From a virus, in IMG/VR virus record IMGVR_UViG_3300037521_000453, positions 1-26,902 of that record: a DNA stretch of 26,902 nt, one strand, 5' to 3'. The notes under the pieces are model-generated. The model was not told the DNA's origin. It worked only from the letters and a program-made list of their open reading frames with translations, and did not search any database. Shown in pieces: positions 3,324 through 23,545 of this stretch (position 1 is the first letter of the stretch; each line of letters opens with the position of its first letter). Position numbers and translations under genes: made by a program.

Positions 3324-3474
3324 GTTAAACTGTAAAAGATGTCGCCGAGACGTTGTGCCAGTTATAAAAATGGCGGGACAAATTTGTCCGTTTTGCCGAA
3401 TAATACTTGAACCTGTAACCATTGCAGAGGTCAAAATTGAAAACAGTCAAGCAGATAGTAAAAGAGGCGAGTAA
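3304..3474 (+). CDS. 56-aa double-CxxC zinc ribbon protein
   Basis: A short frame overlapping the helicase end by 20 bases, with AAGGA well placed before its ATG. It has two knuckles, C10-K-R-C13 and C28-P-F-C31, spaced as in a minimal zinc ribbon, then an acidic and charged tail. Such proteins often bind nucleic acid or act as transcription accessory factors, but nothing here fixes the role. The double CxxC together with the SD makes a chance frame unlikely. Confidence 0.7.
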   Translation: MKCSPNKLNCKRCRRDVVPVIKMAGQICPFCRIILEPVTIAEVKIENSQADSKRGE

Positions 3475-3688
3475 GGATTCTCAAATCCGTGATATGTTAA
3501 GAAGCGCAGATAATACTTTGGTCAATAACGTCAAAGACCGCTTTTATGGCATTGTTGATAATATGGATTCCTTTGTCGGTGCATTAAATAGTTTAAACGG
3601 TGAGACCGGCGAATTTTCAAAAGACCTTATTGCTGCCAAAAAAATGAAAAAAGAGTTTGATAAAATAACTCTTGGAAAATACCTATAA
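3437..3688 (+). CDS. Small helical protein with capsid-targeting-like N-terminus
   Basis: The best start is TTG at 3437: AGAGG lies six bases upstream and the protein then begins MKTVKQIVKEASKD. An alternative in-frame TTG at 3422 lacks an SD. The first 10 residues fit the MKTFKE-type leader shared by several proteins here, with a possible cut after VKE before Ala. The remaining ~73 residues are charged and predicted helical, with no cysteine and no known motif. It overlaps the previous gene by 38 bases. Function unknown; a packaged internal protein is inference from the leader. Confidence 0.6.
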   Translation: MKTVKQIVKEASKDSQIRDMLRSADNTLVNNVKDRFYGIVDNMDSFVGALNSLNGETGEFSKDLIAAKKMKKEFDKITLGKYL

Positions 3689-3748
3689 GGAGAGAACCTA
3701 TGGACCCCGACCCGATACCAGTCAGCAAAGATACAACCGAAGTTTAAT

Positions 3749-3826
3749 CGGAGATTAGCTCAGTCTGGACAGAGCGCGCGGTTTGGGTCCGCGAAGTCGG
3801 AGGTTCGAATCCTCTATCTCCGACCA
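3749..3826 (+). tRNA. tRNA-Pro (anticodon UGG)
   Basis: A full cloverleaf can be drawn. The acceptor stem CGGAGAT pairs with ATCTCCG. The D stem is GCTC/GAGC. The anticodon stem CGCGG/CCGCG encloses the loop TTTGGGT, giving anticodon TGG. The T arm is GGAGG-TTCGAAT-CCTCT with one G-U pair. Discriminator A and the CCA end are encoded. The C1-G72 pair is typical of bacterial tRNA-Pro. It is the only tRNA I find in the window and sits inside the small-gene run. Confidence 0.95.
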
Positions 3827-3840
3827 TAAAAAGGAATTTT

Positions 3841-4407
3841 ATGCAAACTTTTAAAGAGCATTATCTGACAGAAGCCAAAAAAGCCGTTTCCAGAGAGCAG
3901 GCCGAAGAATATTTAAATACAATCAAACGCCAAATCAATCCCGAAATGTCAGACCCAGTCCGCCAAAATGGTGACTGGTGGGATTTGATGATTCGCGACC
4001 ATGATTTTTTTACAGATAGAGGTGGTGAAGAAGATGATGACCATCCAAATTTCACAGGCGATAAACGTCTCAATAAAATCCTCAAATCAATTTTAAAGGG
4101 TGTCGAGTTCCAATATTCACCGGAAGAAAAGGGTTGGATTACCATTCTTCTCAAAGCCAAAAAGCTCACGAAAAAACAACTCGCCGCCGATACCAAAAAG
4201 AAAATCCAACCAGTCATTGATGCCGCCAGAAATGAAATATATAATGCAAATGACCGGTGGGACAGAGATTATTATGAGCAGTTGGTCGATGTTTTGAAAA
4301 AATGGAAAAAGAAATTCATCAAGAAAGAGGAATTTTTCGACCTCCAGAAAAGTGTAAAACATGGGGACGATGAAAACGCAAATAATATCTGGTGGAAGGC
4401 AAAATGA
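3841..4407 (+). CDS. Putative internal head protein with capsid-targeting-like leader
   Basis: 188 aa. The N-terminus is MQTFKEHYLTE|AKKAV: it matches the recurring MKTFKE leader and ends in L-T-E before Ala, the cleavage rule of T4-type prohead proteases ((L/I)-x-E). The body is highly charged. It has an Asp/Glu/Gly patch at about 57-68, a Lys-rich mid-part and a C-terminal WWKAK. No catalytic motif is seen. The start has AAAAGGAATTTT upstream and lies 14 bases after the tRNA. I do not recognise the family. Packaging in the capsid is inferred from the leader. Confidence 0.75.
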   Translation: MQTFKEHYLTEAKKAVSREQAEEYLNTIKRQINPEMSDPVRQNGDWWDLMIRDHDFFTDRGGEEDDDHPNFTGDKRLNKILKSILKGVEFQYSPEEKGWITILLKAKKLTKKQLAADTKKKIQPVIDAARNEIYNANDRWDRDYYEQLVDVLKKWKKKFIKKEEFFDLQKSVKHGDDENANNIWWKAK

Positions 4408-4622
4408 AAACTTTCAAGGAAATATTCGAAGCCAAGTTAAAATTAAATTATACACCGGACAAAAAGTTACCTCTGGTTGTAAGCAAAACGACTTCCAGAT
4501 GGTTCATATATGAGAAGGATGAGCCAGACCCAGTTACGAGCAAATCCTTTAAAACACCGGAAGAGGCCGAGCAATTTATAAAGGATAATCTTCCAGGATA
4601 CAAAATTGAGATTGATAAATGA
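4404..4622 (+). CDS. Small protein with capsid-targeting-like leader
   Basis: 72 aa. The start ATG at 4404 overlaps the previous stop as ATGA and has GGAAGG upstream. A GTG four codons earlier is less likely because the leader MKTFKEIFE|AKL would then not be N-terminal. I-F-E before Ala fits the prohead protease rule. The rest resembles a small alpha/beta unit: beta-like LPLVVSKTTSRWFIY, then KSFKTPEEAEQFIKDNL, which looks like a compact helix motif. No known function; a role inside the head is inference. Confidence 0.75.
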   Translation: MKTFKEIFEAKLKLNYTPDKKLPLVVSKTTSRWFIYEKDEPDPVTSKSFKTPEEAEQFIKDNLPGYKIEIDK

Positions 4623-4843
4623 AAACTTTTCAGCAAATATTACTCGAAAAAATGGACAAAATTCCCCTCACCACGGCGGAACGTGAGGAGATGAAAAAGC
4701 GTTTCGGAAATCCTGGATGCTCTATTGCCAAAAATAAACGTGGCGAATTTTTCGCCTATACTCACCGAGCACGGACAAAATTTTACCCGTCTCTGGCTGA
4801 GTTACCTAAAGATAAAGTCAAATTTATAGCAAGCACGAGCTAA
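4619..4843 (+). CDS. Small protein with capsid-targeting-like leader
   Basis: 74 aa, overlapping the previous gene as ATGA. It begins MKTFQQILLE|KMDK, the same leader with L-L-E at the expected cut. The mature part would be basic, about 64 residues, with FGNPGCSIAKNKRGEFFAY and a C-terminal YPSLAELPKDKVKF. It could be a small beta-hairpin nucleic-acid binder, but this is a guess. Lack of a convincing SD suggests translation is coupled to the upstream gene. Confidence 0.75.
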   Translation: MKTFQQILLEKMDKIPLTTAEREEMKKRFGNPGCSIAKNKRGEFFAYTHRARTKFYPSLAELPKDKVKFIASTS

Positions 4844-4846
4844 ACT

Positions 4847-5077
4847 ATGAAGAGCTTTAAGGAAATATTGGAAAAGGGTTTGAAAGTATCTAAAGAATTA
4901 GAACAGCAGACCGGCTTTCTTATTGATGATATCGAATTTTATATCAATGATGGGGAAGATATTCTCAAAAAAATACCCGGCGCATCTAAAGAGTTTAAAA
5001 AGATGGTCGCCGATGCCAAAAAATTAAAAGATAGCATGACAGGATTTTCTAATTCTGTCGCTAAAAAGGAAAAATAA
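4847..5077 (+). CDS. Small helical protein with capsid-targeting-like leader
   Basis: 76 aa starting MKSFKEILE|KGLKV, three bases after the previous stop. I-L-E fits the protease rule. The remainder is amphipathic helix with heptad-like spacing (LEQQTGFLIDDIEFYI, then FKKMVADAKKLKDSM) and a lysine-rich end. The stop overlaps the next start at the final A. It is the third consecutive gene with this leader, which argues for a functional cassette. No family recognised. Confidence 0.75.
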   Translation: MKSFKEILEKGLKVSKELEQQTGFLIDDIEFYINDGEDILKKIPGASKEFKKMVADAKKLKDSMTGFSNSVAKKEK

Positions 5078-5742
5078 TGGCCAAGAAACTATCAATGACA
5101 ATGCGGGAAGAGTTTGCCGAACTTGAGGAAAGTATGGACGACTGGATGGCACATACTGAAATGGTCTCTGATGAAGCCGGTGACCAACGAAAAAATATGA
5201 TGAAAGCTTGGAACCAAATGGATAAGGCATATGAAGCCTTTAAAAAATCCACGAAGATTTTCATCAGAGCCCAACAGACTCTCAATGAAAGTGATTTATC
5301 GGAAGGTAAAGCACTGGATATGGTTAAAAAAGGTCAGCTTAAAAAACTTGATGATGACCAACTGGCCGATGTTGCCGGAGAAATTGAAAATAAAAAGTGG
5401 AATAAGGATAATAAGGCCGAGGTCCAGAGATGGGTAAAGGATATCAATGCCGAAATGAAAAAGCGGGGAATGTCATTCGGTGAGTCTCCTGTCAAAGCCA
5501 CGTTTGAATCCGATCCTGGCGATGGGAGCAGAACTTTCAAGCAATATTTCGCCGAGAAAACAAAAACAATCACGGAAAAATCCTCCGATGGACATTGGCA
5601 TGAGGCCGTTTTGGATGATGAAGGTGATGGGAAAACGACCAAAACCCTGCCCAAAGGCCATCCCGACCACACTCACAATATAGTCGGGGCAGAGGTTCAA
5701 ACAGCCGGTAAGAAAAAGCACAGCCACCTTTTAAAGGGGTAA
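5077..5742 (+). CDS. Coiled-coil protein with internal leader-like motif and His-rich tail
   Basis: 221 aa. Residues 1-70 are acidic helix, probably coiled coil. L-S-E|G occurs at 74-76. Residues 152-160 read RTFKQYFAE|K, the shared leader motif placed internally instead of at the N-terminus. The last ~50 residues carry HWH (173-175), GHPDHTH and KHSH around a DDEGDGKT turn, a pattern of paired histidines typical of small metal-binding tails in phage proteins. It could be a fusion of two internal proteins, or a precursor cut by the prohead protease. The start is ATGG directly after the previous stop. Function unknown. Confidence 0.7.
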   Translation: MAKKLSMTMREEFAELEESMDDWMAHTEMVSDEAGDQRKNMMKAWNQMDKAYEAFKKSTKIFIRAQQTLNESDLSEGKALDMVKKGQLKKLDDDQLADVAGEIENKKWNKDNKAEVQRWVKDINAEMKKRGMSFGESPVKATFESDPGDGSRTFKQYFAEKTKTITEKSSDGHWHEAVLDDEGDGKTTKTLPKGHPDHTHNIVGAEVQTAGKKKHSHLLKG

Positions 5743-5747
5743 AATAT

Positions 5748-6125
5748 ATGGGTGCATTCAATAAACTCTTGGCGATTACATTCGCCGCCATGCTCGCCAA
5801 ACCTTTCACAAAATGGAAAGCCTTTGAAAAAGGTTTAATTGACGAGAAAGGCAATCTCCTTCGCAAACCAGAAAATCAACCAGACCGAGATGCACTTGGT
5901 GGATTAAAGGGATTCGTCCGCAAACTTAAACGCCTTTTAATAAAGGTCGTGCCGGACAGCCGCTTATTAGGCATTTTAGTGGCCGCATTTTTATTGAAGA
6001 GGGAGTCCGAATTATCTGAGGTCGAGCAAGCGGTAAAAGCATCCATCGAGAAAAATATGACGGAAAAGGAAATTGATGATATAATTAGTCATCTCAAAAT
6101 ATTAGTAAAAATGAACTTAGATTAA
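5748..6125 (+). CDS. Hypothetical phage protein (FTKWKAFEKGLIDEKGN motif)
   Basis: 125 aa with AAGGGG upstream. The first 20 residues are hydrophobic (LLAITFAAMLA) and could be a membrane or buried helix. FTKWKAFEKGLIDEKGN follows at 20-36, then a basic VRKLKRLLIKVVP, a second hydrophobic helix (LLGILVAAFLL, about 73-83) and a charged helix pair. I have a recollection of similar 'W-K-A-F..G-I-I-D-E-K-G' proteins in other large phages, but no function is known to me. An L-S-E motif is present at about 90-92. Not named further. Confidence 0.7.
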   Translation: MGAFNKLLAITFAAMLAKPFTKWKAFEKGLIDEKGNLLRKPENQPDRDALGGLKGFVRKLKRLLIKVVPDSRLLGILVAAFLLKRESELSEVEQAVKASIEKNMTEKEIDDIISHLKILVKMNLD

Positions 6126-6134
6126 GGAGATATC

Positions 6135-6887
6135 ATGAAACCATTACCACATCTCATAATAATTTTTCTATTATCAGTCTTTTTAATTTGGGGATGTGCC
6201 GGACAACAGTTAGACCGGACGCCTATGCCACCACAAGAAGTAGAAGTAAAAATAACCATCGAAAATGTCGGTGAAGGTAAAGCCCTGATAAAAATTAAAG
6301 AGGGGAATAAAATCCATAAGTCAATGGAAGTTCAAAACCCCGAAATGAAATTATCCCAATTATCTTCCACTGCCGGTGATAAAGCATATATTAAAATATT
6401 CTCCGGCCTATCTGTGGCTGATGTAACCAGAACATGGAATGACTTAATTTATTTAGAAACTAAAACTTCAATTCGAGATGTTGTTATATTTATCGATTCT
6501 CCCGGTGGCGATGCTTTTTCTGGTCTCGCACTGGCCGATCAAATTGAAAAATATCAAAAACGTGGATTTAAATTTATTGCCCATGCCACTGGTATCATTG
6601 CATCGGCGGCGGTTCCAGTTTTTGCTGCTTGTGATGAGACCCATGCTACAGAGGCAACGATATTCATGGTTCATGAGGCCGCACTTTGGAAATGGCCGGG
6701 ACGGGAAACTGCAAGTCAAATCCGGTCACAAACGGCATTGATGGACTTATTGCAACGCCTATATTTAAATAAACTGGTCAGGCATTCAAATATTGATTAT
6801 GAAAAATGGGAAGACATGGAAGCAAAAACGTCTTGGTTTGATGTAAATAAAGCCGTTGAAATCGGAATACTTGACTATATCGATTAA
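6135..6887 (+). CDS. ClpP/SppA-fold serine protease with lipoprotein signal
   Basis: 250 aa. The N-terminus has a short basic start, a hydrophobic core LIIIFLLSVFL, and C21 after IWG, which fits a lipobox (Trp at -2 is unusual). Residues 22-80 are a linker or beta region. From about 85 on it matches the ClpP/crotonase fold: FIDSPGGD (119-126), the nucleophile region TGIIASAAV with Ser157, FMVHEA with His180, and a closing KAVEIGILD that resembles the end of ClpP. The Ser/His placement suggests an active protease. Export to the membrane is unexpected for a phage ClpP homologue; these are usually prohead or cytosolic proteases. A good SD (AAGGAG) precedes the ATG. It follows the internal-protein cassette. 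Confidence 0.85.
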   Translation: MKPLPHLIIIFLLSVFLIWGCAGQQLDRTPMPPQEVEVKITIENVGEGKALIKIKEGNKIHKSMEVQNPEMKLSQLSSTAGDKAYIKIFSGLSVADVTRTWNDLIYLETKTSIRDVVIFIDSPGGDAFSGLALADQIEKYQKRGFKFIAHATGIIASAAVPVFAACDETHATEATIFMVHEAALWKWPGRETASQIRSQTALMDLLQRLYLNKLVRHSNIDYEKWEDMEAKTSWFDVNKAVEIGILDYID

Positions 6888-6902
6888 AAGGTGGTATAAT
6901 AT

Positions 6903-7109
6903 ATGCCATTACCAAAAGTTGACCCAAAAGACAGCGAAAAGGGTTACGTTGAAAAGTGTATGAAGTTCCGCAGTAAGGAAAAGGATTTAACCGATGAGGC
7001 GGAACGTAAACAGTCTCTGGCGATGTGTTTCTCAAACTTTCGCCGTGACCGGGGCATAAAGGAAAATGCTCCGAAGACCATGTATCAAATATTACAAGAA
7101 AACGAATAA
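6903..7109 (+). CDS. Small protein with the phage 'CM...C' motif
   Basis: 68 aa. The core YVEKCMKFRSKEKDLTDE followed by ERKQSLAMCFSNFRRDRG matches a motif often seen in phage structural genes, F-x-x-R-C-M ... R-x-A-V-C-x-x-W, here as a stand-alone protein. The last residues TMYQILQENE resemble the shared leader in reverse context (hydrophobic run then L-Q-E), but at the C-terminus. AAAGGTGG upstream is the SD. The biochemical role of the motif is not established to my knowledge. Confidence 0.7.
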   Translation: MPLPKVDPKDSEKGYVEKCMKFRSKEKDLTDEAERKQSLAMCFSNFRRDRGIKENAPKTMYQILQENE

Positions 7110-7144
7110 AAACTCCACTAATTCAAATTTAACAGGAGACCTTT

Positions 7145-8407: not shown

Positions 8408-8512
8408 GGGGTAAATACAGTTATGGGAAAATTAGATAAAAAGGTAAAATCAAGGTAAAAATAAATGAAGCTTAATTGGCCTGGAAGATGATTCGCAGTT
8501 CGCAAATAGCAA

Positions 8513-8848
8513 ATGAAAACATTTAAACAATTTTTAGAGGGAAAGTTGCCAGATGGGATGTATCCGACTCCGATGGTACAGCTTTCTCTCAGTTGGGCAT
8601 TCCGTAATAAAAAATTTGCCACGTGGCATAAATTATATAAAAAGCACATCGATGATTATTATGATAGCATGAAAGAATTTAGAGCCGCAGGTGGGAAGCC
8701 ATATAGCCGCAGTTGGTCAGAAATGGTTGGATACCACGTCCAAAATACCAATTATGACGGAGAACTCGGAGTCAGTGCATTCTGGTCCGCAATATCCAAA
8801 AAATTTAAAATAACACCCGAAGATTTAAACTATAAACCAGGACAGTGA
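8513..8848 (+). CDS. Putative internal protein with capsid-targeting-like leader
   Basis: 111 aa. It begins MKTFKQFLE|GKLPD, the shared leader, with F-L-E instead of strict (L/I)-x-E. The rest is rich in aromatic residues and compact: WAFRNKKFATWHKLYKKH, YYDSMKEFRAAGG, SWSEMVGYHV and a C-terminal helix-like FWSAISKKFKITPEDL. No transmembrane helix or Cys. The upstream ~105 bases carry only an 11-codon frame at 8423. It lies far from the 3841-5077 cassette, so the leader has spread to, or been kept in, several loci. Confidence 0.75.
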   Translation: MKTFKQFLEGKLPDGMYPTPMVQLSLSWAFRNKKFATWHKLYKKHIDDYYDSMKEFRAAGGKPYSRSWSEMVGYHVQNTNYDGELGVSAFWSAISKKFKITPEDLNYKPGQ

Positions 8849-8865
8849 CTGTAAAGGATTTTAAA

Positions 8866-8997
8866 ATGTATAGTAAAGTAAAAATAACTAAAACACCACG
8901 ACCACCAAAAATGGAATGGACTGACGACAAATCACCACGTCCGCCAAGAAGAGGTGGGACATGTAAATGGCGCGGGATGGATTGGTGGCCTAAATGA
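8866..8997 (+). CDS. 43-aa basic proline-rich protein
   Basis: ATG with AAAGGA upstream, 17 bases after the previous stop. The product is basic and Pro-rich (TPRPPK, SPRPPRRGG) with a Trp-rich end (GMDWWPK) and one Cys. It is the first and longest of a chain of short frames that lead directly to the peptidase gene at 9140. No known family. The good SD and the overlapping follow-on frame (ATGA) support translation. Confidence 0.5.
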   Translation: MYSKVKITKTPRPPKMEWTDDKSPRPPRRGGTCKWRGMDWWPK

Positions 8998-9138
8998 ACA
9001 AAAAAGATAAAGGCGGAGTTTAATTTGCGAATAGCAAATAGCAAACGGGGTCCTAAGGGACCGGAGTGGTTAAAGAGACCACATAAAGGATTTTAAATGG
9101 GACCACATTATCCAAAAAAGCCGCATAAAGGAGTTTAA
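8994..9138 (+). other. Cascade of three micro-ORFs (9, 23 and 13 codons)
   Basis: Three tiny frames follow one another without gaps: 8994-9023 (ATG, overlapping the previous stop), 9025-9096 (TTG start) and 9097-9138 (ATG). The next gene starts at 9140. The last two products end RPHKGF and KPHKGV, and the codons for HKG (cataaagga) also provide the SD of the following frame. They share GP-x(n)-K-PHKG and look like a degenerate tandem duplication. They may be real peptides, or only serve translational coupling. Confidence 0.4.
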
Positions 9139-9139
9139 A

Positions 9140-9589
9140 ATGCCCGGTTCAGGTTTATACATACCAACGCACTTTAAGGCCGTTGAGTTGGTGCCGAAAA
9201 ATATCTATAATAAATATAAATCCCGTGGGGATAATTGGTTCTGGCAGACCGTTTTTGATGAGCGACTGCTTATTGTAATCGATACCATCCGGACCGCCTT
9301 CGGACCTATGACCATAAATGATTGGTCGTGGGCCGGCACGAGCCAATATCGTGGATTTAGACCGCCGAATTGTGGGGTCGGGGCAACGCTCAGTCAGCAC
9401 CGTTTTGGTCGAGCCGCAGATTTAATAGCCAAAGATATTCATCCAGATTTAATCCGAGATGAAATTATCGACCATCAAAATGAAGAAATATGGGGTTTGG
9501 TTGGTGGATTGGAGATGAATATTTCTTGGTTGCACGTGGATGTCCGGCAAAGAGGGAAAGACGGCAAAATAAGTTTATTTTATCCATAA
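9140..9589 (+). CDS. M15-type zinc peptidase, endolysin candidate
   Basis: 149 aa. SQHRFGRAADL (85-95) supplies the S-x-H-x-x-G-x-A-x-D signature (H87, D94) and WLHVDV (130-135) gives the third zinc ligand H132 plus D134. This is the peptidase M15 / D-Ala-D-Ala carboxypeptidase-like fold, which cleaves peptidoglycan cross-links or stem peptides. There is no signal peptide or separate cell-wall binding domain, so it would need a holin, or could act from the virion. Length fits small M15 endolysins. AAAGGAG precedes the start. The only holin-like candidate in view is the 34-residue membrane peptide at 16711. Confidence 0.8.
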   Translation: MPGSGLYIPTHFKAVELVPKNIYNKYKSRGDNWFWQTVFDERLLIVIDTIRTAFGPMTINDWSWAGTSQYRGFRPPNCGVGATLSQHRFGRAADLIAKDIHPDLIRDEIIDHQNEEIWGLVGGLEMNISWLHVDVRQRGKDGKISLFYP

Positions 9590-9592
9590 TTT

Positions 9593-9621: not shown

Positions 9622-9644
9622 TATTATAAACTAAGGAGATTGAA

Positions 9645-12979: not shown

Positions 12980-15607
12980 ATGTCAAAATTTTACACCTAT
13001 GTTGGCCAGTCCCGTGATGATAATGGATTGGTTTTGCACGTCTATTATGATGAGGCCGGTGTCCGCCATGAAGAAAAGATTCCATTTCAACCGATGTTGG
13101 GGAAGATGGTCCGATCGCCAGACCCCGATAAAGAATATCAATACACGGATATTTATGGGAATCCCCTGCAATGGAAGCGATTTGACAGCATTGCCAAATA
13201 TCGAAACTTCATCGATGAATATGAGGAGGTCGATTTTTACGGCACAATGAAAGAGGAGTATCAATTCCTTGGTGAAAATTATCCAGATGAAGTTGATTAC
13301 GACCTATCAAAAGTCCGGCCATTTTTGATTGATATTGAAATTGATTCATCCGAAGGCTTTGCCAAAGTAGATGAGGCCGACAGGGAAATCACATCGATAT
13401 CATTAAAGGATATGCGGGGGAACCGTTATTTTGTTATGTCAACCAAAGCATGGGACCCCAAAAAGACGTGCCTAAAAGATGAAAAGGGGACGTGGATTGA
13501 TTTGAGCAAAGTCAAGTTTTACCTATGCCAAGATGAGGAGACCATATTTAAACGACTCCGGCAGGTCGTCCGCAAAGAGAAGCCGGATATGCTCGTTGGA
13601 TTTTACTCCAAGATGTTTGACTTCCCCTATATCATCAAGCGGGGCAAATTCGTCATGGGCAAGGAATATATGAACGGATTTTCGCCCTTTGGATTTACAA
13701 CCTGCAAGAAAAAGGTTGACCCAATATCCGGCAGGATAATTGATTATTTTTCAAAAATGGAAGGCATTCCCCTGCTCGATTTCCAACTCATGTATAAAAA
13801 GTTTGTCTATACGCCACGGGAAATGTATAGTCTTGATTATATCGCATCCCAAGAACTGGGTGATACGAAGTTGGATTATTCGGAATATGATACTCTGCAT
13901 GATATGTGGGTAAAAGACCCGCAAAAATACATCGATTATAATATATGGGACGTTGAATTAATGGACTTGCTCGACCAGAAGTTAGGTTTAATTGACCTAA
14001 CTTGCACCATCGCTTATTTTTCCAAAACCAACTTCGTTGATACCTTGGGGACGGTTGGAGTTTGGGATTCGATATTTTACAACACCCTGAAAAAGAAAAA
14101 CATAATGATTCCGCCGAAGCACACTGGGGAGAAAGAGGAATATGCGGGTGGCTATGTTTACAAGCCGGAAACCAAAATTCACGACTGGCTGATAGCAGTC
14201 GATTTAAAATCTTTGTATCCGCACGTGCAGCAACAATACAATATCTCACCGGAGTCTTTGATTGATGATATGCGGACTCAAATCGATATCACGATGGATT
14301 TGGATGACCGCTATTTAAACGAAGAATTTGTCGCACCAGAAGATGCAATTATGGCCGCAAACGGGTGCTTTTTCCGCAAGGATAAGGAAGGCATCGTGCC
14401 GGGTCTTTTGCGGGGGATTTATAGTGATAGAGTCGTGGCTAAGGAAAAGATGATTAAGTGGAAGCAAAAGCTTCAGGAATGGAAAAATAAAAACGGTATC
14501 GAAGTCAAAACGGAGTTCAAGGATTATAAAGGTCCGGACGATTTAAAAAAGCAGTGGGCAGTTTTTGAAAAGGAAATATCCACGAAGCACAATTATCAGA
14601 TGGCCATGAAGATTTTAATGAACTCCGAGTATGGCGCAATGGGTAATATCCATTTCCGGTATTATGATGTCCGCCTTGCATCTGCCATCACCCTCTCCTC
14701 TCAATTGGCTTTAAAATGGGCTGCAAAGCGAGTAATGGAACATCCGAATCGCAAAAAGTATCGATGGGAATTAATTTATGGGGATACCGATTCACTTTAC
14801 ATATCGGTCAAATATGTGGTTAACCAAATCCGCCTTCGAAATGAAGGGATTACCGATGTTGAATTAGTAAAGCAGGTCAATACTTTCGTGGCCAAAGTTA
14901 TCCAACCGATACTTTCGGACGGATATGAAGACCTTGCAAAATATGTCAACGCCAATGAGAACCGGATGTTTATGAACCATGAGAAAACGATTACTAACGC
15001 CTTATGGACTTCAAAAAAGCATTATGCCCTCAACGTCATATGGGATGAGGGAGTTACATATCCGGTGCCGAAATTGAAGGTCAAGGGGATTGAGGTTGTC
15101 CGGTCTTCCACGCCAAAAGTTATCAGGGATGCCTTAAAGGAATCGATTGGAATTTTATTAGATGATGAATCAAAACTCCTGGATTTTGTAAAAGAGCAAA
15201 AGGCCAAATTCAAATCATATGATGTAATCGATATCGCCTTCCCACGGTCTGCCAATAATATTGATAGATTCTTGGTCGAGAAAAAGAATGGTGATTTATC
15301 ATATACGACCAAAACTCCCATCGGCGTCCGTGCCGCTATCGTATACAATAACCATATCAGAAATATTGATGGATGGCCGCAGATAAACAGCGGGGAGAAA
15401 ATCAAGTTCGTTTACCTAACAAAACCAAACATATTCGATGAAAACGTGATAGGTTTTATCCGCCGCATCCCCGAAGAGGCAGTTAAATATGTGGACTGGG
15501 ATTTGCAATTTGAAAAAACGTTTTTATCGGTTATTAAAAACATTTATACCAAAATGGGCACGGTTTTCAAAATGTGCAAGGAAACGAATTTATCTGATAT
15601 TTTTTAA
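12980..15607 (+). CDS. Family B DNA polymerase (T4 gp43-like)
   Basis: 875 aa (T4 gp43 898). The 3'-5' exonuclease domain has Exo I LIDIEID (D118, E120), Exo II GFYSKMFDFPYI (D214) and Exo III YNIWD (Y320, D324). Polymerase motifs: A DLKSLYPH (408-415), B KILMNSEYG (544-552), C YGDTDS (600-605), then KKHYAL. All catalytic acids are present. The Asn normally found in Exo II (T4 GWNIEGFD) is Tyr209 here. The GGAAAG SD lies inside the end of the primase gene. Together with the nearby helicase, primase and RNase H this forms a T4-type replisome; clamp and loader are not in the window. Confidence 0.95.
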   Translation: MSKFYTYVGQSRDDNGLVLHVYYDEAGVRHEEKIPFQPMLGKMVRSPDPDKEYQYTDIYGNPLQWKRFDSIAKYRNFIDEYEEVDFYGTMKEEYQFLGENYPDEVDYDLSKVRPFLIDIEIDSSEGFAKVDEADREITSISLKDMRGNRYFVMSTKAWDPKKTCLKDEKGTWIDLSKVKFYLCQDEETIFKRLRQVVRKEKPDMLVGFYSKMFDFPYIIKRGKFVMGKEYMNGFSPFGFTTCKKKVDPISGRIIDYFSKMEGIPLLDFQLMYKKFVYTPREMYSLDYIASQELGDTKLDYSEYDTLHDMWVKDPQKYIDYNIWDVELMDLLDQKLGLIDLTCTIAYFSKTNFVDTLGTVGVWDSIFYNTLKKKNIMIPPKHTGEKEEYAGGYVYKPETKIHDWLIAVDLKSLYPHVQQQYNISPESLIDDMRTQIDITMDLDDRYLNEEFVAPEDAIMAANGCFFRKDKEGIVPGLLRGIYSDRVVAKEKMIKWKQKLQEWKNKNGIEVKTEFKDYKGPDDLKKQWAVFEKEISTKHNYQMAMKILMNSEYGAMGNIHFRYYDVRLASAITLSSQLALKWAAKRVMEHPNRKKYRWELIYGDTDSLYISVKYVVNQIRLRNEGITDVELVKQVNTFVAKVIQPILSDGYEDLAKYVNANENRMFMNHEKTITNALWTSKKHYALNVIWDEGVTYPVPKLKVKGIEVVRSSTPKVIRDALKESIGILLDDESKLLDFVKEQKAKFKSYDVIDIAFPRSANNIDRFLVEKKNGDLSYTTKTPIGVRAAIVYNNHIRNIDGWPQINSGEKIKFVYLTKPNIFDENVIGFIRRIPEEAVKYVDWDLQFEKTFLSVIKNIYTKMGTVFKMCKETNLSDIF

Positions 15608-15672
15608 AATAAACCTAAAGTTTTGTTGACAAAGGCCGATATAGGTTATAGAATGAGAAGAAAACGTCAACA
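15606..15672 (+). repeat. Promoter/operator repeat, copy 1
   Basis: The first 50 bases match 18008-18057 in 49 positions, and the following 17 match in 13. The unit contains a consensus promoter and inverted arms TGTTGAC (15624-15630) and GTCAACA (15666-15672). It begins in the last codons of the intergenic space after the polymerase stop. Confidence 0.85.
15626..15654 (+). promoter_or_regulatory. Sigma70-like promoter in repeat copy 1
   Basis: TTGACA, 17 bases, TAGAAT: a full -35 and five of six at -10. The -35 lies inside one arm of the TGTTGAC/GTCAACA inverted repeat, so a protein binding those arms could block polymerase. It should drive 15692 and the accessory genes to the methyltransferase. 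Confidence 0.75.
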
Positions 15673-16268: not shown

Positions 16269-16496
16269 ATGGGCAAAAGAAAAATCAGAAAAAATTTTGA
16301 AGATAAATTTGGCAACGTTGTGCAGGTCGGTGATTACGTTTATGCCCACGGAGTAAATGAGGGACTGGAAGGCACCGTTGTAAAATGCAACGATGACAAT
16401 TCTGTAAAAGCCTTCAACGTAATGACCACTGACGGCATAATCCAGTATTTCAATCGGGAGTGGACACGAAAGGAATTAAATTTCCAAACGAAATGA
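16269..16496 (+). CDS. Small beta-barrel-like hypothetical protein
   Basis: 75 aa from ATG 16269, with AGAGAGGT upstream. In-frame codons before it reach into the structured gap and have no SD. After a basic start (MGKRKIRKNFEDKFG), the sequence VVQVGDYVYAHGVNEGLEGTVVKC resembles the V-x-V-G-D-x-V ... G-x-x-G-x-V pattern of KOW/SH3-like small barrels, which often bind RNA or protein. The C-terminus is DGIIQYFNREWTRKEL. Function unknown. Confidence 0.65.
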   Translation: MGKRKIRKNFEDKFGNVVQVGDYVYAHGVNEGLEGTVVKCNDDNSVKAFNVMTTDGIIQYFNREWTRKELNFQTK

Positions 16497-16510
16497 TTTT
16501 GAGGTAAATC

Positions 16511-16699
16511 ATGTTATTGAAAAACGGAAAAGAAAACGGTTTAAAAGAGGATGAATTTTGTCCCAAATGCAACACCGGAGTTATTTTCGGATATGCAACT
16601 ATTTGTGCTCTTTGCCAACCGATAGTTCTTCGCCAAGAAAAAGGGTTGGAATTCTTGGTCGATATGAAAGGTGACCCGCCGATTGATGGGCAGGGATAA
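16511..16699 (+). CDS. 62-aa zinc ribbon protein
   Basis: C17-P-K-C20 and C32-A-L-C35 form a double CxxC, a short zinc ribbon with 11 residues between knuckles. A hydrophilic tail with VLRQEKGLEFLVDMKG follows. GAGGT stands eight bases before the ATG. It lies in the accessory block between promoter copy 1 and the methyltransferase. Possible transcription-related adaptor; not recognised. Confidence 0.65.
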   Translation: MLLKNGKENGLKEDEFCPKCNTGVIFGYATICALCQPIVLRQEKGLEFLVDMKGDPPIDGQG

Positions 16700-16710
16700 A
16701 GGAGAATAAA

Positions 16711-16815
16711 ATGTTCGGAGATTATATTGCTCTATTTGCTATGGCTGTCGCACTTATTTTTATGTATGTTATGTGCCCCTCTGCCGCTGACAGTTTACCA
16801 TTAATTTTTATGTAA
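16711..16815 (+). CDS. 34-aa single-pass membrane peptide
   Basis: ATG with a perfect AAAGGAG SD nine bases upstream. Residues about 5-24 (YIALFAMAVALIFMYVMCPS) form one hydrophobic helix, followed by a short, mildly acidic tail ending IFM. Its stop is directly followed by the SD of the methyltransferase. It could be a small holin-like or inhibitor peptide; with so short a sequence no family can be assigned. Confidence 0.6.
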   Translation: MFGDYIALFAMAVALIFMYVMCPSAADSLPLIFM

Positions 16816-16828
16816 GGAGTGGTAAAAA

Positions 16829-17908
16829 ATGTTCAATGTTTTAAGCCTTTTTGATGGCATGAGCTGTGGGCAAATCGCACTGGAACGAGCCGGTATAAAA
16901 TACGACCATTATTTTGCCAGTGAGATTGACCAGTATGCTATCGAAATCACGCTAAAAAATTATCCCGATACACTTCAGCTTGGGGATATCACCAGTCTGA
17001 ATACAGACTCATTGCCGCCGATTGGTTTATTGATGGGAGGTTCGCCTTGTCAATCCTTTTCCAACGCCGGAGACCACTCTGGTTTTAAAGGCAAGTCCGG
17101 TCTCTTTTGGGAATTTGTGCGGATATTTAATAAGGTAAAACCCAAATATTTCCTGTTTGAAAACGTCAAAATGAAAAAGGAATGGCGGGATATTATATCT
17201 CGAGAGCTTGGGGTCGAGCCCATATTGATAAACTCCGCATTGGTATCCGCCCAAAATCGCCAACGATATTATTGGACAAACCTGACCGACAAGCAACCAA
17301 AAGATAAAGGTATCAAATTGGTCGATGTGCTTGAGGCCGGAGTCGTTGATAGAGATAAATCATTTTGCTTGGATGCCAATTATTTCAAAGGCACAAACCT
17401 GAAGGGACACCTTACAAAAAATCGCCGACAGGTCGTCTTTACGGAACGCCGGACAGAGTCCGCCAAACGCATCCGCCGCAAATTTAAACAGGCATATGGG
17501 GTCGATTACTCGCCACGGCGGGATAAAGAATTGGTCACCAGAGACGATGATAAAGTCAATTGCTTGACCACGTCCGGCTTCACAAAGGAGCATATTGTCC
17601 TTGATAAATCCCAGTGCATCCTTTCGACAATGTATAAAGAGAATGTCAAATCGATGCTCAAACGGAATAAATTGGGGTTGTTGGTCGGGGATGAGGATTT
17701 AAATAATATACATTTTCGTAAATTAACGCCGATGGAATGCGAAAGGTTGCAGACCGTGCCGGATAATTACACTGACGGAGTATCCGCCACGCAGAGATAT
17801 CGGATGATTGGAAACGGTTGGACGGTAGATGTTATCGCCCATATGCTCCAATATATAGGAAATAAAAAAGGTGCATTCAATGAAATCAAAATCTTGGATT
17901 TATTTTAA
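16829..17908 (+). CDS. C5-cytosine DNA methyltransferase
   Basis: 359 aa. It transfers methyl from SAM to C5 of cytosine. Motif I LSLFDGMSCGQIAL (5-18), motif IV GGSPCQSFS with catalytic C74, motif VI FENVK (E111), motif VIII QNRQRYYW (142-149), then a target-recognition region (about 170-290) and closing motifs IX/X (MECERLQTVPDNY, RYRMIGNGW). The complete set suggests an active enzyme. No restriction partner is next to it, so it probably protects phage DNA against host restriction or marks it for regulation. The recognition site cannot be read from the sequence. SD AAGGAG. Confidence 0.92.
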   Translation: MFNVLSLFDGMSCGQIALERAGIKYDHYFASEIDQYAIEITLKNYPDTLQLGDITSLNTDSLPPIGLLMGGSPCQSFSNAGDHSGFKGKSGLFWEFVRIFNKVKPKYFLFENVKMKKEWRDIISRELGVEPILINSALVSAQNRQRYYWTNLTDKQPKDKGIKLVDVLEAGVVDRDKSFCLDANYFKGTNLKGHLTKNRRQVVFTERRTESAKRIRRKFKQAYGVDYSPRRDKELVTRDDDKVNCLTTSGFTKEHIVLDKSQCILSTMYKENVKSMLKRNKLGLLVGDEDLNNIHFRKLTPMECERLQTVPDNYTDGVSATQRYRMIGNGWTVDVIAHMLQYIGNKKGAFNEIKILDLF

Positions 17909-18093
17909 TGGATTTCCAAGAATCAGCCGCCTATTATATGGAACTTTATCATCTCAGTCTGAGAAATTTCGACTATTGGTTGGACGATGTTTATTTTAAA
18001 AATAGTGAAAATAAACCTAAAGTTTTGTTGACAAATGCCGATATAGGTTATAGAATGGAAAGAAACGGTCAACAAACCAACGGGAGATTTTGA
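17908..18093 (+). CDS. Possible 61-aa protein spanning promoter copy 2
   Basis: Starts with a TAATG overlap on the methyltransferase stop. Residues 1-33 (acidic and aromatic: AAYYMELYHLSLRNFDYWLDD) look protein-like, and the end covers the promoter repeat, reading KPKVLLTNADIGYRM. The same peptide would be read from copy 1, but there without an upstream gene. No SD except coupling. Either a real short protein whose tail happens to carry the promoter, or a chance frame. Confidence 0.4.
   Translation: MDFQESAAYYMELYHLSLRNFDYWLDDVYFKNSENKPKVLLTNADIGYRMERNGQQTNGRF
18008..18074 (+). repeat. Promoter/operator repeat, copy 2
   Basis: Near-identical to 15606-15672 (about 62 of 67 positions). Here the inverted arms extend to 9 bp, TTTGTTGAC (18024-18032) and GTCAACAAA (18068-18076). 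The 35 bases between the arms equal the spacing in copy 1. Confidence 0.85.
18028..18056 (+). promoter_or_regulatory. Sigma70-like promoter in repeat copy 2
   Basis: TTGACA, 17 bases, TAGAAT, the same as copy 1 apart from one spacer base. It lies 39 bases before the 18095 gene, which carries a GGGAG SD, and should drive the 18095-20002 block. Confidence 0.75.
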
Positions 18094-18094
18094 A

Positions 18095-18472: not shown

Positions 18473-18475
18473 ATT

Positions 18476-19408: not shown

Positions 19409-19619
19409 TTTTTCGGGATATTATATTGGAGCATTTATGTATGTCCGTGCCGAAGACCGCACTGAGGCCGACAAAATGTTCAAAGAAAAAGTAAGAGATA
19501 TATCGGAGAGTTTATACCATGATAATGTATGGGAGAACGGAGGGATTCGTAAATCTGTAACGGTCACCGAAATCAAAAACGGCAAACGGGCAGTTTTGCT
19601 CGCTGATGGAGATTATTAA
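19389..19619 (+). CDS. Small hypothetical protein, 76 aa
   Basis: GGGAGGT SD inside the end of the previous gene. The pattern MRTYIYDFSGYYIGAFMYVRAEDRTEADKMF... reads as beta-hairpin plus helix, then KSVTVTEIKNGKRAVLLADGDY as two strands, a ferredoxin-like or small alpha/beta unit. Phage proteins with an 'A-x-x-x-x-E-A' helix after two strands are common, but no function follows from this. Confidence 0.65.
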   Translation: MRTYIYDFSGYYIGAFMYVRAEDRTEADKMFKEKVRDISESLYHDNVWENGGIRKSVTVTEIKNGKRAVLLADGDY

Positions 19620-19621
19620 GT

Positions 19622-20002
19622 ATGTATATGATGCCATCCAAATTGACGGAAGGGAAGACACGGTGCAATCGGAAAGACCCGCCCAAAACAGCCAAGAGGC
19701 CAATAAAGCCGCCGCCACAAGGCAGACCAACTGCAAAATGGACGTGGGACTGGCCGCAGGAAGAAGGATGGTTTTGGATTTATGGTCTATTAAATAAAGA
19801 GGATAAAGAATTCTCTTTATATCCAGCCAAGGCTTATAAATCTCTGGCCGGACAAATGTCATATGCATCCAACGGGGGATTTCTTTATCAATCGGAGGTC
19901 TGCCTAATTATGTGGTTTCCAATAACGATGCCAACTATGGTGCCGACACCGGAAATAATGTATCGAAATGTTTTCCCTGAAATGTTTGAAACGGGTAAAT
20001 AA
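19622..20002 (+). CDS. Hypothetical protein with basic Pro-rich N-terminus
   Basis: 126 aa, with GGAGAT upstream. Residues 8-40 are basic and Pro-rich (KDPPKTAKRPIKPPPQGRP), probably disordered. A Trp-rich part follows (KWTWDWPQEEGWFWIYGLL), then a hydrophobic segment SEVCLIMWFPITMPTMVP that is borderline for a membrane helix. Last gene before a hairpin-rich gap. No family recognised. Confidence 0.55.
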   Translation: MYMMPSKLTEGKTRCNRKDPPKTAKRPIKPPPQGRPTAKWTWDWPQEEGWFWIYGLLNKEDKEFSLYPAKAYKSLAGQMSYASNGGFLYQSEVCLIMWFPITMPTMVPTPEIMYRNVFPEMFETGK

Positions 20003-20269
20003 AAACAGGGTATGAGTAACCACAAACCCACTGGTATTAGGCGGGAGAAGGTGATGGAATGCTAATTCTCTGGAAGTCCTGCTCATATCTTTCCAAGGGT
20101 GATGCTCTCCGGTTGCTCTCCGAAAGAGGTCACCCACACATTTTTCAAATGGTCCTTATAGGGACCATATGGCCGCTTAATGTTGCTTTAAAGGACCATT
20201 AAGCCAATATTCGCCCTTAATGTGGGATATTATACCCATTAGGGTATTCAAAAAAAAAAAGAGGCATCC
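20003..20269 (+). other. Hairpin-rich non-coding region
   Basis: No credible gene in 267 bases. Visible structures: GGGTGA (20097-20102) with TCACCC (20130-20135), enclosing CTCT/AGAG and a tandem TGCTCTCCG direct repeat; ATGGTCC-ttatag-GGACCAT (20149-20168); GCTTAATG/CATTAAGC (20174-20206 region); and an imperfect CCCTTAATGTGGG/CCCATTAGGG pair (about 20215-20245). A run of ten A follows before the next gene. The TTAATG/CATTAAG theme recurs in the last hairpins. Candidate small RNA or leader. Confidence 0.5.
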
Positions 20270-20995
20270 GTGGTCAATAAATTTCGAGAACTTTTAGAGG
20301 CTGAACCTGCTCGTATAATCCGCACTGCAAATCCCGACATCGTCAGACGACTCAAAAAGGATAAGCCAAGGCCGACCAAACCAAAATTGGTCAAACCACT
20401 TTTACCGAAGGGTCCAGGTTTGCAATTTGAACGGAATGGACAAAGCCTTGAATATATTTTTAAGCACGGCGGAAGGTGGGTTATCGATACCAACCACGCC
20501 GCACAAAGGATGGGAGAAAGGAATTCATATTCCGATAAAGAGATACAAGGGTTTTTTCGCCGGATGATTGATAAATATTTATCAATGGGACCGGCCTATA
20601 CTAATTTAAATAATCCAGAATTTTTATTCTTCTCAAAAAGCCTTAATCAAGGCATGATTATTGCATACCGGAAGGATTTTAAAAAGATAGATAATAAAAA
20701 GCATTTCGTGGTCGTCACGTTTTTCCCAAAAGGTTCAAAGCGGGTTAAGCGGGGCACAGATATTATCATGTTGGAGTCTTATGATTATGGTGACGGGCCG
20801 ATATTTTCTGACGAATTTACCGAATATATGGACCAAATAAGGTGCCAATATGGGTCACCGTATAATTGCTTTTTAGATGGAAAACAAACTTATATCCCCG
20901 AATGTATCCAACTCGAAGATACAAAATTCGACATCATTTTCTGTGAAGGGAAATTATTTCATATTTCCGACTTTGAGGTAATTGAAATTGACTAA
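20270..20995 (+). CDS. Toxin-like protein with capsid-targeting-like leader
   Basis: 241 aa, GTG start with AAGAGG upstream. The N-terminus VNKFRELLE|AEPAR resembles the shared leader with L-L-E before Ala. Residues 30-50 are basic and Pro-rich. From about 60: IFKHGGRWVIDTNHAAQRMGE and later GMIIAYRKDFKK and HFVVVTFFPKGSKRVKRGTD. The H-A-x-x-R-M-x-x-R pattern followed by beta strands is reminiscent of DUF4258/BrnT-like small RNase folds, with an extra C-terminal domain holding three Cys. This match is by eye and weak. A packaged effector is a hypothesis only. Confidence 0.6.
   Translation: MVNKFRELLEAEPARIIRTANPDIVRRLKKDKPRPTKPKLVKPLLPKGPGLQFERNGQSLEYIFKHGGRWVIDTNHAAQRMGERNSYSDKEIQGFFRRMIDKYLSMGPAYTNLNNPEFLFFSKSLNQGMIIAYRKDFKKIDNKKHFVVVTFFPKGSKRVKRGTDIIMLESYDYGDGPIFSDEFTEYMDQIRCQYGSPYNCFLDGKQTYIPECIQLEDTKFDIIFCEGKLFHISDFEVIEID
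20567..20586. repeat. Perfect 20-bp palindrome inside a coding region
   Basis: ATTGATAAATATTTATCAAT reads the same on both strands, inside the 20270 gene (codons for MIDKYLSM). A dimeric regulator or topology-related site is possible, but it may be chance in AT-rich DNA. Confidence 0.6.
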
Positions 20996-21017
20996 TTTAA
21001 ACAAATCATAGTATAAT
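20988..21017 (+). promoter_or_regulatory. Sigma70-like promoter for ribonucleotide reductase
   Basis: TTGACT, 18 bases, TATAAT, overlapping the end of the 20270 gene and 74 bases before the reductase start. Transcription would start near 21024, at the base of the AGCCGGA/TCCGGCT hairpin. Confidence 0.7.
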
Positions 21018-21020
21018 GCA

Positions 21021-21061
21021 AGCCGGAGTGGTTGCAACTGCTATAAGCAAGCTGTCCGGCT
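21021..21061 (+). other. Stem-loop in the reductase 5' leader
   Basis: AGCCGGA (21021-21027) pairs with TCCGGCT (21055-21061), and the 27-base loop holds a GTTGCAAC palindrome and a TGC/GCA mini-stem. There is no run of T, so it is not a standard terminator. It is too short for a cobalamin riboswitch and lacks its B12 box. It may stabilise the mRNA. Confidence 0.5.
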
Positions 21062-21091
21062 TTACTTATTCCAAATAGAAAGGAATCACCA

Positions 21092-22822
21092 ATGCTCAAA
21101 CCGAAGGCACAAGTGATTGTAAAGAATCGGTATTTTATCAATGAACATGAAAATTGGGAAAGATTATCAATGCGAGTTGGACAAGGTGCCGCCGCCGTTG
21201 AAACAACATACGAAAACCAACAGCTTTATACCAAAAAATTCTCCGAAATGATATACAATATGCATTTCCTTTCTGCGGGACGTATTTTGAGAAATATGGG
21301 CCGGCCCCGTGGAACTTTATTCAATTGTTATGCCAAAAATATTGAAGATACCATTGAAAGCATTGCATACACCGGAGCTGATGCCATGATTTTATGGGCA
21401 GAAGGCGGCGGAGTTGGCTTTAACGCCTCTTTTATGAGGCCGGAGGATGCACCTATAATGCAAAAAGGCGGAGAATCGTCCGGACCCATATCATTTTTGA
21501 CCGGATATAACGCCTTCGCTCAAACCATTAAAACAGGGGGAGCAAGACGAGCCGCCGCCCTTGCTTTGATGGTTGTAAGCCATCCCGATATCTTTAAGTT
21601 TATCAATTCCAAAATCGTGGACGGACTGTTAAATAATTTTAATATATCAGTCGGGGTAACCGAAGATTTCTTGGATGCAGTGGAGACTGATTCCAACTGG
21701 GATTTGCATTTTAACCAGAAAGTGTATAATACCGTTCGGGCCAAAGATTTATGGGATTTGATGATGAATAATGCCGTAAAATATGCGGAACCTGGACTGA
21801 TAAACTGGGATAATCTGCGGAGCAACAACTCTTATTATTTTGACCCGATTATTGCACCAAATCCCTGTGGGGAAGTTCCCCTTGGAGACGATGGAGTTTG
21901 TTGCTTGGGGTCGCTTGTTTTGCCGAATTTAATTACCGGCCACGTCAATACCAATTGGCAGTTAATGGAGCAAACCGTGCATCTGGCCGTTCGATTTTTG
22001 GATAATATCATCCAAGTCAATAAATATCCGGACCATATTCCCGGTATAAAACGGAAAGCATTTGAATCTCGCCGCATAGGTATCGGCATTATGGGACTGG
22101 CCGAGTATTTATTCGCCAAAAAACTTCGGTATGGGTCGGAGGAAGCCGTTTTAGAAATTGAAAAGCTGATGAGAAATATCCGTGATTACGCATATGAGGC
22201 ATCAATTAAATTATCAGCAGAGAAGGGTGCCTTCCCAAAATTTGACCCGATGTTGTACAGTAAGGCCAATTTTGTGCGCCAATTACCTAACCAGACCAGA
22301 ATGGATATTAAAAAGTTTGGTATCCGAAATGTAACAATGCAAGCCATCGCACCAACGGGGACGATTTCTTTGTTGGCGGAAGTCACGGGGTCGGCGGAAC
22401 CATTAACTTATAAGGCATATATTCGCAATGATGAGGTCGGGAAACGGGCCTATGTCCATGAAATTTTCCAAAAAATAATCGAAAATAAAGAAGCAACGCC
22501 GGACTGGTTTGTTGATTCTGCAGACCTTAAGCCCGAAGACCATTTGGAAACACAGGTCGCCATCCAAAAATATGTGGATGGTGCCGTATCAAAAACGCTT
22601 AATTTACCGAAGGGGACAAAATCAGACCGCCTGAGTTACCTTTTATTACAGTATATGCGGGACTTAAAGGGGACAACCTGTTACGTGGATGGATCTAAAA
22701 AGGGGCAGATATTGGTGCCGATTACCAAAAGGCAGGCCGGGGAATATTTGCAAAAGGAGCAGGCTTATACTGAAGTGGATGAGGAAGTAACCGAGTGCTC
22801 CACGGGAAAATGTGACATATAA
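21092..22822 (+). CDS. nrdJ: Class II (adenosylcobalamin-type) ribonucleotide reductase
   Basis: 576 aa. It reduces ribonucleotides to deoxyribonucleotides for phage DNA. SAGRILRNMGRPRGTLFNCYA (about 61-81) has the first active-site Cys (C79); NPCGE (257-261) gives C259 and E261; GVCCLGS (268-274) holds the partner Cys; the C-terminal CSTGKC (569-574) is the shuttle pair. The N-terminal ATP-cone is absent and the length is shorter than class I. No NrdB-type radical protein follows, which supports the B12-dependent type. A transcription unit of its own: promoter upstream, terminator downstream. SD AAAGGAA. Confidence 0.9.
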   Translation: MLKPKAQVIVKNRYFINEHENWERLSMRVGQGAAAVETTYENQQLYTKKFSEMIYNMHFLSAGRILRNMGRPRGTLFNCYAKNIEDTIESIAYTGADAMILWAEGGGVGFNASFMRPEDAPIMQKGGESSGPISFLTGYNAFAQTIKTGGARRAAALALMVVSHPDIFKFINSKIVDGLLNNFNISVGVTEDFLDAVETDSNWDLHFNQKVYNTVRAKDLWDLMMNNAVKYAEPGLINWDNLRSNNSYYFDPIIAPNPCGEVPLGDDGVCCLGSLVLPNLITGHVNTNWQLMEQTVHLAVRFLDNIIQVNKYPDHIPGIKRKAFESRRIGIGIMGLAEYLFAKKLRYGSEEAVLEIEKLMRNIRDYAYEASIKLSAEKGAFPKFDPMLYSKANFVRQLPNQTRMDIKKFGIRNVTMQAIAPTGTISLLAEVTGSAEPLTYKAYIRNDEVGKRAYVHEIFQKIIENKEATPDWFVDSADLKPEDHLETQVAIQKYVDGAVSKTLNLPKGTKSDRLSYLLLQYMRDLKGTTCYVDGSKKGQILVPITKRQAGEYLQKEQAYTEVDEEVTECSTGKCDI

Positions 22823-22833
22823 ATGCATTCTGC

Positions 22834-22866
22834 ACGATAACGGTTCGGATGTTATCGTTCATTTTT
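22834..22866 (+). terminator. Rho-independent-like terminator after nrdJ
   Basis: ACGATAAC, 9-base loop, GTTATCGT: a perfect 8-bp stem, followed after three bases by five T. It starts 12 bases after the reductase stop. Confidence 0.65.
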
Positions 22867-22878
22867 AGAGTTGTACAC

Positions 22879-22909
22879 GTTCGCTGAACATTTCAATCCA
22901 GTGAACTGG
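22879..22909. repeat. Two short palindromes in the gap after nrdJ
   Basis: GTTCgctGAAC (22879-22889) and CCAGTgaACTGG (22898-22909) lie between the terminator and the 22946 gene. They could be operators for the head-protein genes, or chance. No -35/-10 pair is clear here. A TATAAAT sequence at 22922-22928 resembles the -10 of T4 late promoters. Confidence 0.35.
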
Positions 22910-22945
22910 TAAATAGTTATATATAAATCAAATAGGAGTATTTAA

Positions 22946-23545
22946 ATGAAAGATTTCAAAGAATTTTACGAAGCCAATGAATTTGATGACAGTTTTATCG
23001 ATGAGGATGAGGTTTTAGAGGAAGCCCAACTCTGCAATAAAATGTTCGATTTTATTATGGCACTCGATGAGGATAACGTGCCGGATGATTTGGTGGACGA
23101 ATATATCGAAATAATTGAAATCGTTGCCGGTGATGAGGATGAGGATTTAGCTGAAGCCGCCCTTAAAATCAAAACCGATAAGGGTGACGTCACCCTGAAG
23201 GCGAATGATAGCATCGAACACGAAGCCAAACCTGGAGTTGTTCGTATCGGTATGGCCGGTGACGTTATCAAATCCGGTGTCAAATTTAAAAAAGGTGGCA
23301 AATGGTATGTGGCCGAATCCATCGAAATAAATGAAGCACCGCCTGCCAAACGAGTCCGCCGAGACCCAGTGAAACGGCGGAAGGCCGCTCGCGAATTTCG
23401 GAAAGTTAAAGCCAAAAAGAAAATCGAAGGTCGCCGGACGAGAAAAACCGCCAAGTTCAAACGGTTTAAGAAAAAGCAAAAACGACTGGGCAAACGGGGC
23501 AAAACTGCAACCGGCAAACGCAAACGGACGTTTATCAATAAATAA
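22946..23545 (+). CDS. Bipartite acidic/basic putative head-core precursor
   Basis: 199 aa. Leader MKDFKEFYE|ANEF, then a very acidic part to about 70. A mixed middle domain (71-130) starts after L-A-E70|A and ends at I-N-E130|A. The C-terminal 69 residues (131-199) are packed with Lys and Arg (RRKAAREFRKVKAKKKIEGR and similar), like a histone-type or DNA-condensing tail. Another L-E-E|A lies at 24-26. If the phage protease follows the T4 (L/I)-x-E rule, cleavage would release three pieces, one strongly DNA-binding. The acidic half could keep the tail quiet until maturation. TAGGAG SD. Confidence 0.8.
   Translation: MKDFKEFYEANEFDDSFIDEDEVLEEAQLCNKMFDFIMALDEDNVPDDLVDEYIEIIEIVAGDEDEDLAEAALKIKTDKGDVTLKANDSIEHEAKPGVVRIGMAGDVIKSGVKFKKGGKWYVAESIEINEAPPAKRVRRDPVKRRKAAREFRKVKAKKKIEGRRTRKTAKFKRFKKKQKRLGKRGKTATGKRKRTFINK

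Follow-up and report, generated by a model that had tools for sequence, protein, structure and literature searches.

A leader of about ten residues with the consensus MKTFKxILxE opens eight genes, all on the + strand, of a 26,902-nt viral fragment (IMG/VR record IMGVR_UViG_3300037521_000453, positions 1 to 26,902; this whole stretch is here called the window), confirming the observation of an earlier note on this DNA that these genes have one leader in common. Judged from sequence comparison, it very probably serves as a T4-type capsid targeting sequence which is cut by an S77 protease, and the proteins behind it would be cargo, packaged in the head and in many cases probably injected.

The leader in the window and in related genomes

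The window derives from a myovirus of the T4 superfamily, as a UvsX-like recombinase, a DnaB-like helicase, an exonuclease, a DNA polymerase and a ribonucleotide reductase are recognised in it. Every leader start listed previously is a real open frame on the + strand, with ATG as start codon in six genes (3841, 4404, 4619, 4847, 8513 and 22946), TTG in 3437 and GTG in 20270 (Table 1); the peptide of the last, given as VNKFRELLE, is corrected to M(V)NKFRELLE, ten residues counting the start. The pattern across the eight is M-K-[TS]-F-K-x-[IF]-[LF]-(x)-E. The proposed leader end, (L/I)-x-E, is present in five of them (3841 LTE, 4404 IFE, 4619 LLE, 4847 ILE and 20270 LLE), the remaining three having F or V at P3 (8513 FLE, 22946 FYE and 3437 VKE). 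As claimed, the bodies behind the leaders are mutually dissimilar (best window pair E=0.006, composition correction off), and none of the eight matches a PHROG or Pfam family of named IP function, i.e. an IPI, IPII or IPIII mature domain. Two further window copies, one internal and one C-terminal, had escaped the earlier note.

Table 1. Leader genes, additional leader copies and exchanged segments in the window (the arrow marks the predicted cut).
Feature	Position	Strand	Remarks
Leader protein MKTVKQIVKE↓A, 83 aa	3437..3688	+	TTG start; weak leader; profile score 13.3
Leader protein MQTFKEHYLTE↓A, 188 aa	3841..4407	+	leader kept in orthologues
Leader protein MKTFKEIFE↓A, 72 aa	4404..4622	+	score 15.3; body replaced in G001
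Exchanged segment	4427..4618	+	192 bp in window versus 303 unrelated bp in G001
Leader protein MKTFQQILLE↓K, 74 aa	4619..4843	+	score 15.9; PHROG 36052/3666 body
Leader protein MKSFKEILE↓K, 76 aa	4847..5077	+	score 17.7
Fusion protein with internal leader, 221 aa	5077..5742	+	G002 homologue has one more cargo after its internal leader
Internal leader RTFKQYFAE↓K	5530..5556	+	inside ORF 5077-5742
C-terminal leader-like KTMYQILQE	7074..7100	+	in ORF 6903-7109
Leader protein MKTFKQFLE↓G, 111 aa	8513..8848	+	score 14.5; adjoining DNA replaced in G001
Exchanged segment	8845..9127	+	283 bp in window; 676 bp in G001 including leader gene MKTLKNLIES
Leader protein M(V)NKFRELLE↓A, 241 aa	20270..20995	+	GTG start; phrog_17629 E=8e-4; homologues with leader
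Leader protein MKDFKEFYE↓A	22946..23545	+	acidic middle, INE↓A site, basic tail; family of seven

Orthologues at 30-60% identity retain the leader. Those of 3841 open with MQTFKQYLTEG in G002 (61%) and MKSFKKLFEA in G003 (40%), that of 4404 in G003 with MKSFRKLFEA and that of 4847 in G002 with MKTFKDILAE, while the homologue of 3437 in G003 (67039-67452) opens with MKSFRNIIIES. Among the homologues of 20270, L124-L126 and L128 open with MKTFKEFIKEA and L127 with MIDFKEILQE. Clear leaders in 22946 orthologues are MKTYKEQMEAE and MKSFRETLFEE.

The leader is present well beyond chance. With a profile built from the leaders of G003 alone, a 129.5-kb relative whose polymerase and UvsX are 65-67% identical to those of the window, five of the 674 possible window starts score at least 8, compared to a mean of 0.19 and a maximum of two after residue shuffling (500 shuffles); three window leaders (3841, 20270 and 22946) are weak or missed with this G003-trained profile. 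In the reverse test a window-trained profile found 20 of the 1,393 ATG starts of G003, versus 0.20 when shuffled. A DNA pattern encoding MKT(F/Y)(K/R)(Q/E)ILxE is matched by 41 stretches in IMG/VR, versus one for a control with the same residues permuted and none for a second control. Cellular genomes yield only six matching stretches in 257 Gb, one of them a two-leader contig whose genome bin has an S77 match. No comparable leader set was found in pelagiphage HTVC008M and Melnitz-3.

In the 120 bp preceding each of 30 leader genes, no T4-type late promoter (TATAAATA) was found. A 67-bp repeat in the window (15606-15672 and 18008-18074, 93% identical, with TTGACA-17-TAGAAT), of which more copies exist in G001 and G002, looks like a repeated block of a strong sigma-70 (early) promoter. 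A tRNA-Pro (TGG) lies at 3749-3826, directly upstream of leader gene 3841, and is also found in G001, in G002 and, ahead of a leader gene, in G003. The protein encoded at 16829-17908 carries a PCQSFS motif and resembles C5-cytosine DNA methyltransferases by its motifs.

Head genes of the lineage and a putative cleavage signature

A genome with no prohead protease was named in the note as a refutation, and within the lineage this test speaks for the earlier reading. No S77 (gp21-type) protease was found in the window, G001, G002 or G045, all of them replication-gene-side fragments without a head module, while one is present in five relatives of the lineage (G003, L139, L141, L142 and L143), the last four having capsid proteins 69-100% identical to that of G003. 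Since the head region is missing from the window and from G001 and G002, the evidence for the protease comes only from relatives. In G003 the head module follows the T4 order of portal, small leader protein, core protein, S77 protease (E=1e-34), scaffold (phrog_237, E=3e-31) and gp23-like capsid protein, and the protease gene adjoins portal, scaffold and capsid genes in L141, L142 and L143 as well. Aligned with T4 gp21, the proteases of G003 and L142 conserve the GELNHP (His) and SSRG (Ser) motifs, and the capsid protein of the lineage is gp23-like, sharing 34% identity with gp23 of cyanophages and pelagiphages. One metagenome (3300037234) is the source of both L142 and L133, and the latter matches the window with 99% identity at the 22946 gene. 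Among 39 IMG/VR contigs picked by the leader pattern alone, 15 encode S77; a gp23-type capsid protein, which offers a rough yardstick only for this co-occurrence, is encoded in 2,521 of 50,697 phage records (about 5%).

A ClpP-like protein encoded within the leader-gene cluster of the window (6135-6887) is similar to families of head maturation proteases (phrog_94, E=1.8e-19), and might be supposed to remove the leader in place of S77. This is most improbable: the protein opens with a lipoprotein signal (LIWGC), and homologues of it were found in G001 and G002 only, and not in G003, the genome with the most leaders and with an S77 protease.

Cleavage by the S77 protease is consistent with the residues at the leader end. 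Hydrophobic-x-Glu ends at residues 9-11 in 99 of the 105 leader proteins of the fetched contigs. Of the 84 unambiguous leader sites, 48 have A, G or S directly behind the leader Glu (P1'), compared to 57 of 248 behind other hydrophobic-x-Glu of the same proteins (p=2.6e-8); P1' is thus gp21-like, and the rule of (L/I)-x-E with a small residue behind it holds statistically over these 84 leaders. The earlier proposal of a capsid-targeted cargo set, its leaders presumably trimmed in the head, is supported by inference.

A second putative cut characterises the family of 22946, seven divergent members with an acidic middle and a basic C-terminal tail. The sites at the boundary are INE↓A (window), LGE↓A (G003), TTE↓A (G035), LDE↓A (G012 and L137), LQE↓A (L135) and VDE↓V (L136); Glu is thus found in all seven and exact (L/I)-x-E↓A in five. 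In the window the site follows residue 130, and 35 of the 69 residues behind it are Lys or Arg. Leaders are clear in the window, G035 and G012, and degenerate or missing in G003, L135, L136 and L137. The tail may be a DNA-binding peptide that is masked until head maturation. Relatives with such a basic tail were not found in named phages, where the low-complexity filter may hide the matches. The gene adjoining 22946 (23555-24649) encodes a 364-aa protein with many L-x-E sites (LIEG, LTEA, LTEG) and a distant homologue at the same place in G003 (8416-9204); by its sequence it is possibly another head-processed protein.

Diversity and exchange of the cargo

Behind their leaders the 105 proteins fall into 89 sequence clusters, 76 of them single. 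They have a median length of 110 residues and mostly belong to no known family, and G003 alone encodes about 20. Their basicity is not higher than that of other small proteins (median pI 9.0 versus 8.8), and none of the 89 cargo families matches in PADLOC, a library of defence rather than counter-defence proteins. Enzyme domains are recognisable in some. A leader protein of G030 (L057:3428-4426) carries an ADP-ribosyltransferase exoenzyme domain (PF03496, 44.1 bits with a cut-off of 23.4, E=1.9e-11), and a cytidylyltransferase domain is also found among the leader proteins. In G003 a PARP match at 64707-65159 reaches 21.5 bits, below the cut-off of 26.7, and 88697-89017 gives a weak ParB-like match; the window has no ADP-ribosyltransferase candidate. 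Three further G003 genes with leader or near-leader starts (65935-66348, 87065-87523 and 89014-89463) show ADP-ribosyltransferase-like motifs (YHG, YRG, GVYF) by eye and no significant Pfam match. Predicted structures of the PARP-like G003 cargo and of the 20270 protein had pLDDT values of 34 and 37 and were set aside.

Leader and body are not bound to each other. In Bacillus phage AR9 a homologue of the 4619 body, encoded beside the prohead protease gene, has a different N-terminus, and the window protein 5748 lacks the leader which its homologues in G030 and G039 have, so gain and loss of the leader do not depend on the body. The window and G001 are about 99% identical across most of 16.5 kb, but at leader genes they differ in three segments. 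In the first, at 4404, the identity spans the start codon, the leader reads MKTFKEIFE in the window and MKNYREILSE in G001, the bodies are unrelated, and identity returns at the ATG of leader gene 4619. Between 4619 and 4847, G001 has an additional leader gene (MKNFKEYFKE), and a further segment is replaced next to 8513 (Table 1). A fourth difference, at 16474-16803, involves no leader gene in the window. Protein 5077 has a homologue in G002 in which the stretch directly behind an internal leader, STFKQFFAE↓A, shares 45% identity with the extra cargo of G001; a cargo can therefore be a separate gene or part of a fusion.

Since the swaps fall on leader start codons, the DNA there may serve as homology for exchange, and the common N-terminus could be no more than an expression device (an initiation region or recombination site) or a relic of shared ancestry, with no role in packaging. 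This is very unlikely. Codons vary at leader positions 3-10, with many synonymous ones in use, i.e. the peptide is kept and not one DNA string; the Glu is fixed with a small residue behind it; the leader co-occurs with S77; and leaders also stand inside proteins, where the start of translation has no part.

A weightier alternative accepts that the leader targets the prohead core and holds that most of the proteins are parts of scaffold or core (gp67/gp68-like) which are destroyed or lost at maturation, rather than injected effectors. The leader gene at 96014-96271 of G003 (MKKLKDIFES), kept in L141-L143 between portal and protease, fits such a role, as do the neighbour of the AR9 protease gene and the disturbance of head morphogenesis by IPIII deficiency in T4 (PMC9026906). 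For the set as a whole it is nonetheless unlikely, because about 20 different cargoes in a single genome, 105 proteins with as many as 89 unrelated bodies, and swaps between strains that are 99% identical are unlike core structural genes, and because enzyme domains (ADP-ribosyltransferase, cytidylyltransferase) occur among the cargo. Very probably, to judge from the sequences, the leader is instead a head-loading tag for delivery into the next host cell.

Relation to T4 and significance

The sequences themselves show the leader and its statistics, the protease and head genes of the lineage, the exchange of cassettes and the internal leaders; targeting, cleavage, presence in the virion, injection and effector function are what we infer for the leader proteins. 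Residues 1-8 of the leader (MKTFKxIL) would attach to the prohead core during its assembly, a cut by the lineage's S77 prohead protease would then follow behind the Glu at residue 9-11, and the trimmed protein would stay free in the head alongside the DNA. The cargo would mostly consist of accessory proteins, swapped as cassettes at the leader start codons, many of them probably injected with the DNA to act on the defence or metabolism of the host. Some fewer, the 22946 family for example, in which a second cut would free the basic tail, more likely bind and condense the packaged DNA. The fullest form of this picture has about an even chance of being right: an arsenal of about 20-25 proteins delivered by the virion, including several ADP-ribosyltransferases, with the leader as sole shared part and with leader-bounded cassettes that swap between near-identical strains and can form polyproteins, cut apart by the head protease at internal leaders, the 22946 family being a proprotein in which the acidic half covers a histone-like tail up to head maturation.

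The likeness to T4 internal proteins noted previously is borne out, as ipII and ipIII begin MKTYQEFIAE↓A and ipI begins MKTFKEF. In IPIII, the residues mapped as needed are 4 and 7 for targeting and 8 and 10 for processing (PMC9026906). The internal proteins of T4 are a diverse set conserved only in the targeting sequence (PMC3012670); Ip1-3 have only the leader in common and act after injection as inhibitors of type IV restriction enzymes, and T-even phages are reported to have at least ten internal proteins (PMC12373910). As in IPI-III, the N-terminal leader here is about ten residues long with an aromatic residue 4, a hydrophobic residue 7/8 and Glu at the cut, the bodies are unrelated, several variants exist among related phages and a gp21-type protease is present in the lineage. 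Unlike the three IP genes of T4, the numerous leader genes of G003 stand amid head and tail genes and the eight of the window amid replication genes; the leader Glu is often at residue 9 and not 10, internal and C-terminal leaders occur, and the cargo has no recognisable IPI-III domain. The G030 protein, with its ADP-ribosyltransferase domain behind a leader-like N-terminus, recalls T4 Alt and other head-packaged ADP-ribosyltransferases (PMC9503650); there packaging is deduced from neighbouring genes or from MuF/portal fusions, whereas the marker here is a leader at the protein's own start. The ejection proteins of SPN3US and other giant phages (PMC7411985, PMC10052503) differ from the present system, which has a short T4-type leader and a gp23-like capsid protein. 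In T4 itself the 54-aa product of the hypothetical gene 61.1 (NC_000866 18966-19130, - strand; L147:667-831) begins MKTFKEFIKE↓D, the leader of the cargo set; a literature search found two papers that mention gp61.1 in passing and none that treats it as an internal protein of the head.

The principle is already known from T4. New are a severalfold larger set in a distant uncultured lineage, the leader-bounded exchange between near-identical strains, the internal leaders and the ADP-ribosyltransferase cargo; the basic-tail proprotein of the 22946 family is a probable further addition. As the leader also marks gene 61.1 of T4, the prediction is testable in the best studied phage. A packaging leader that can be read from the sequence makes small phage genes with no name candidates for effectors delivered by the virion and, since T4 Ip1-3 inhibit type IV restriction enzymes, makes each new cargo a candidate counter-defence or takeover protein.
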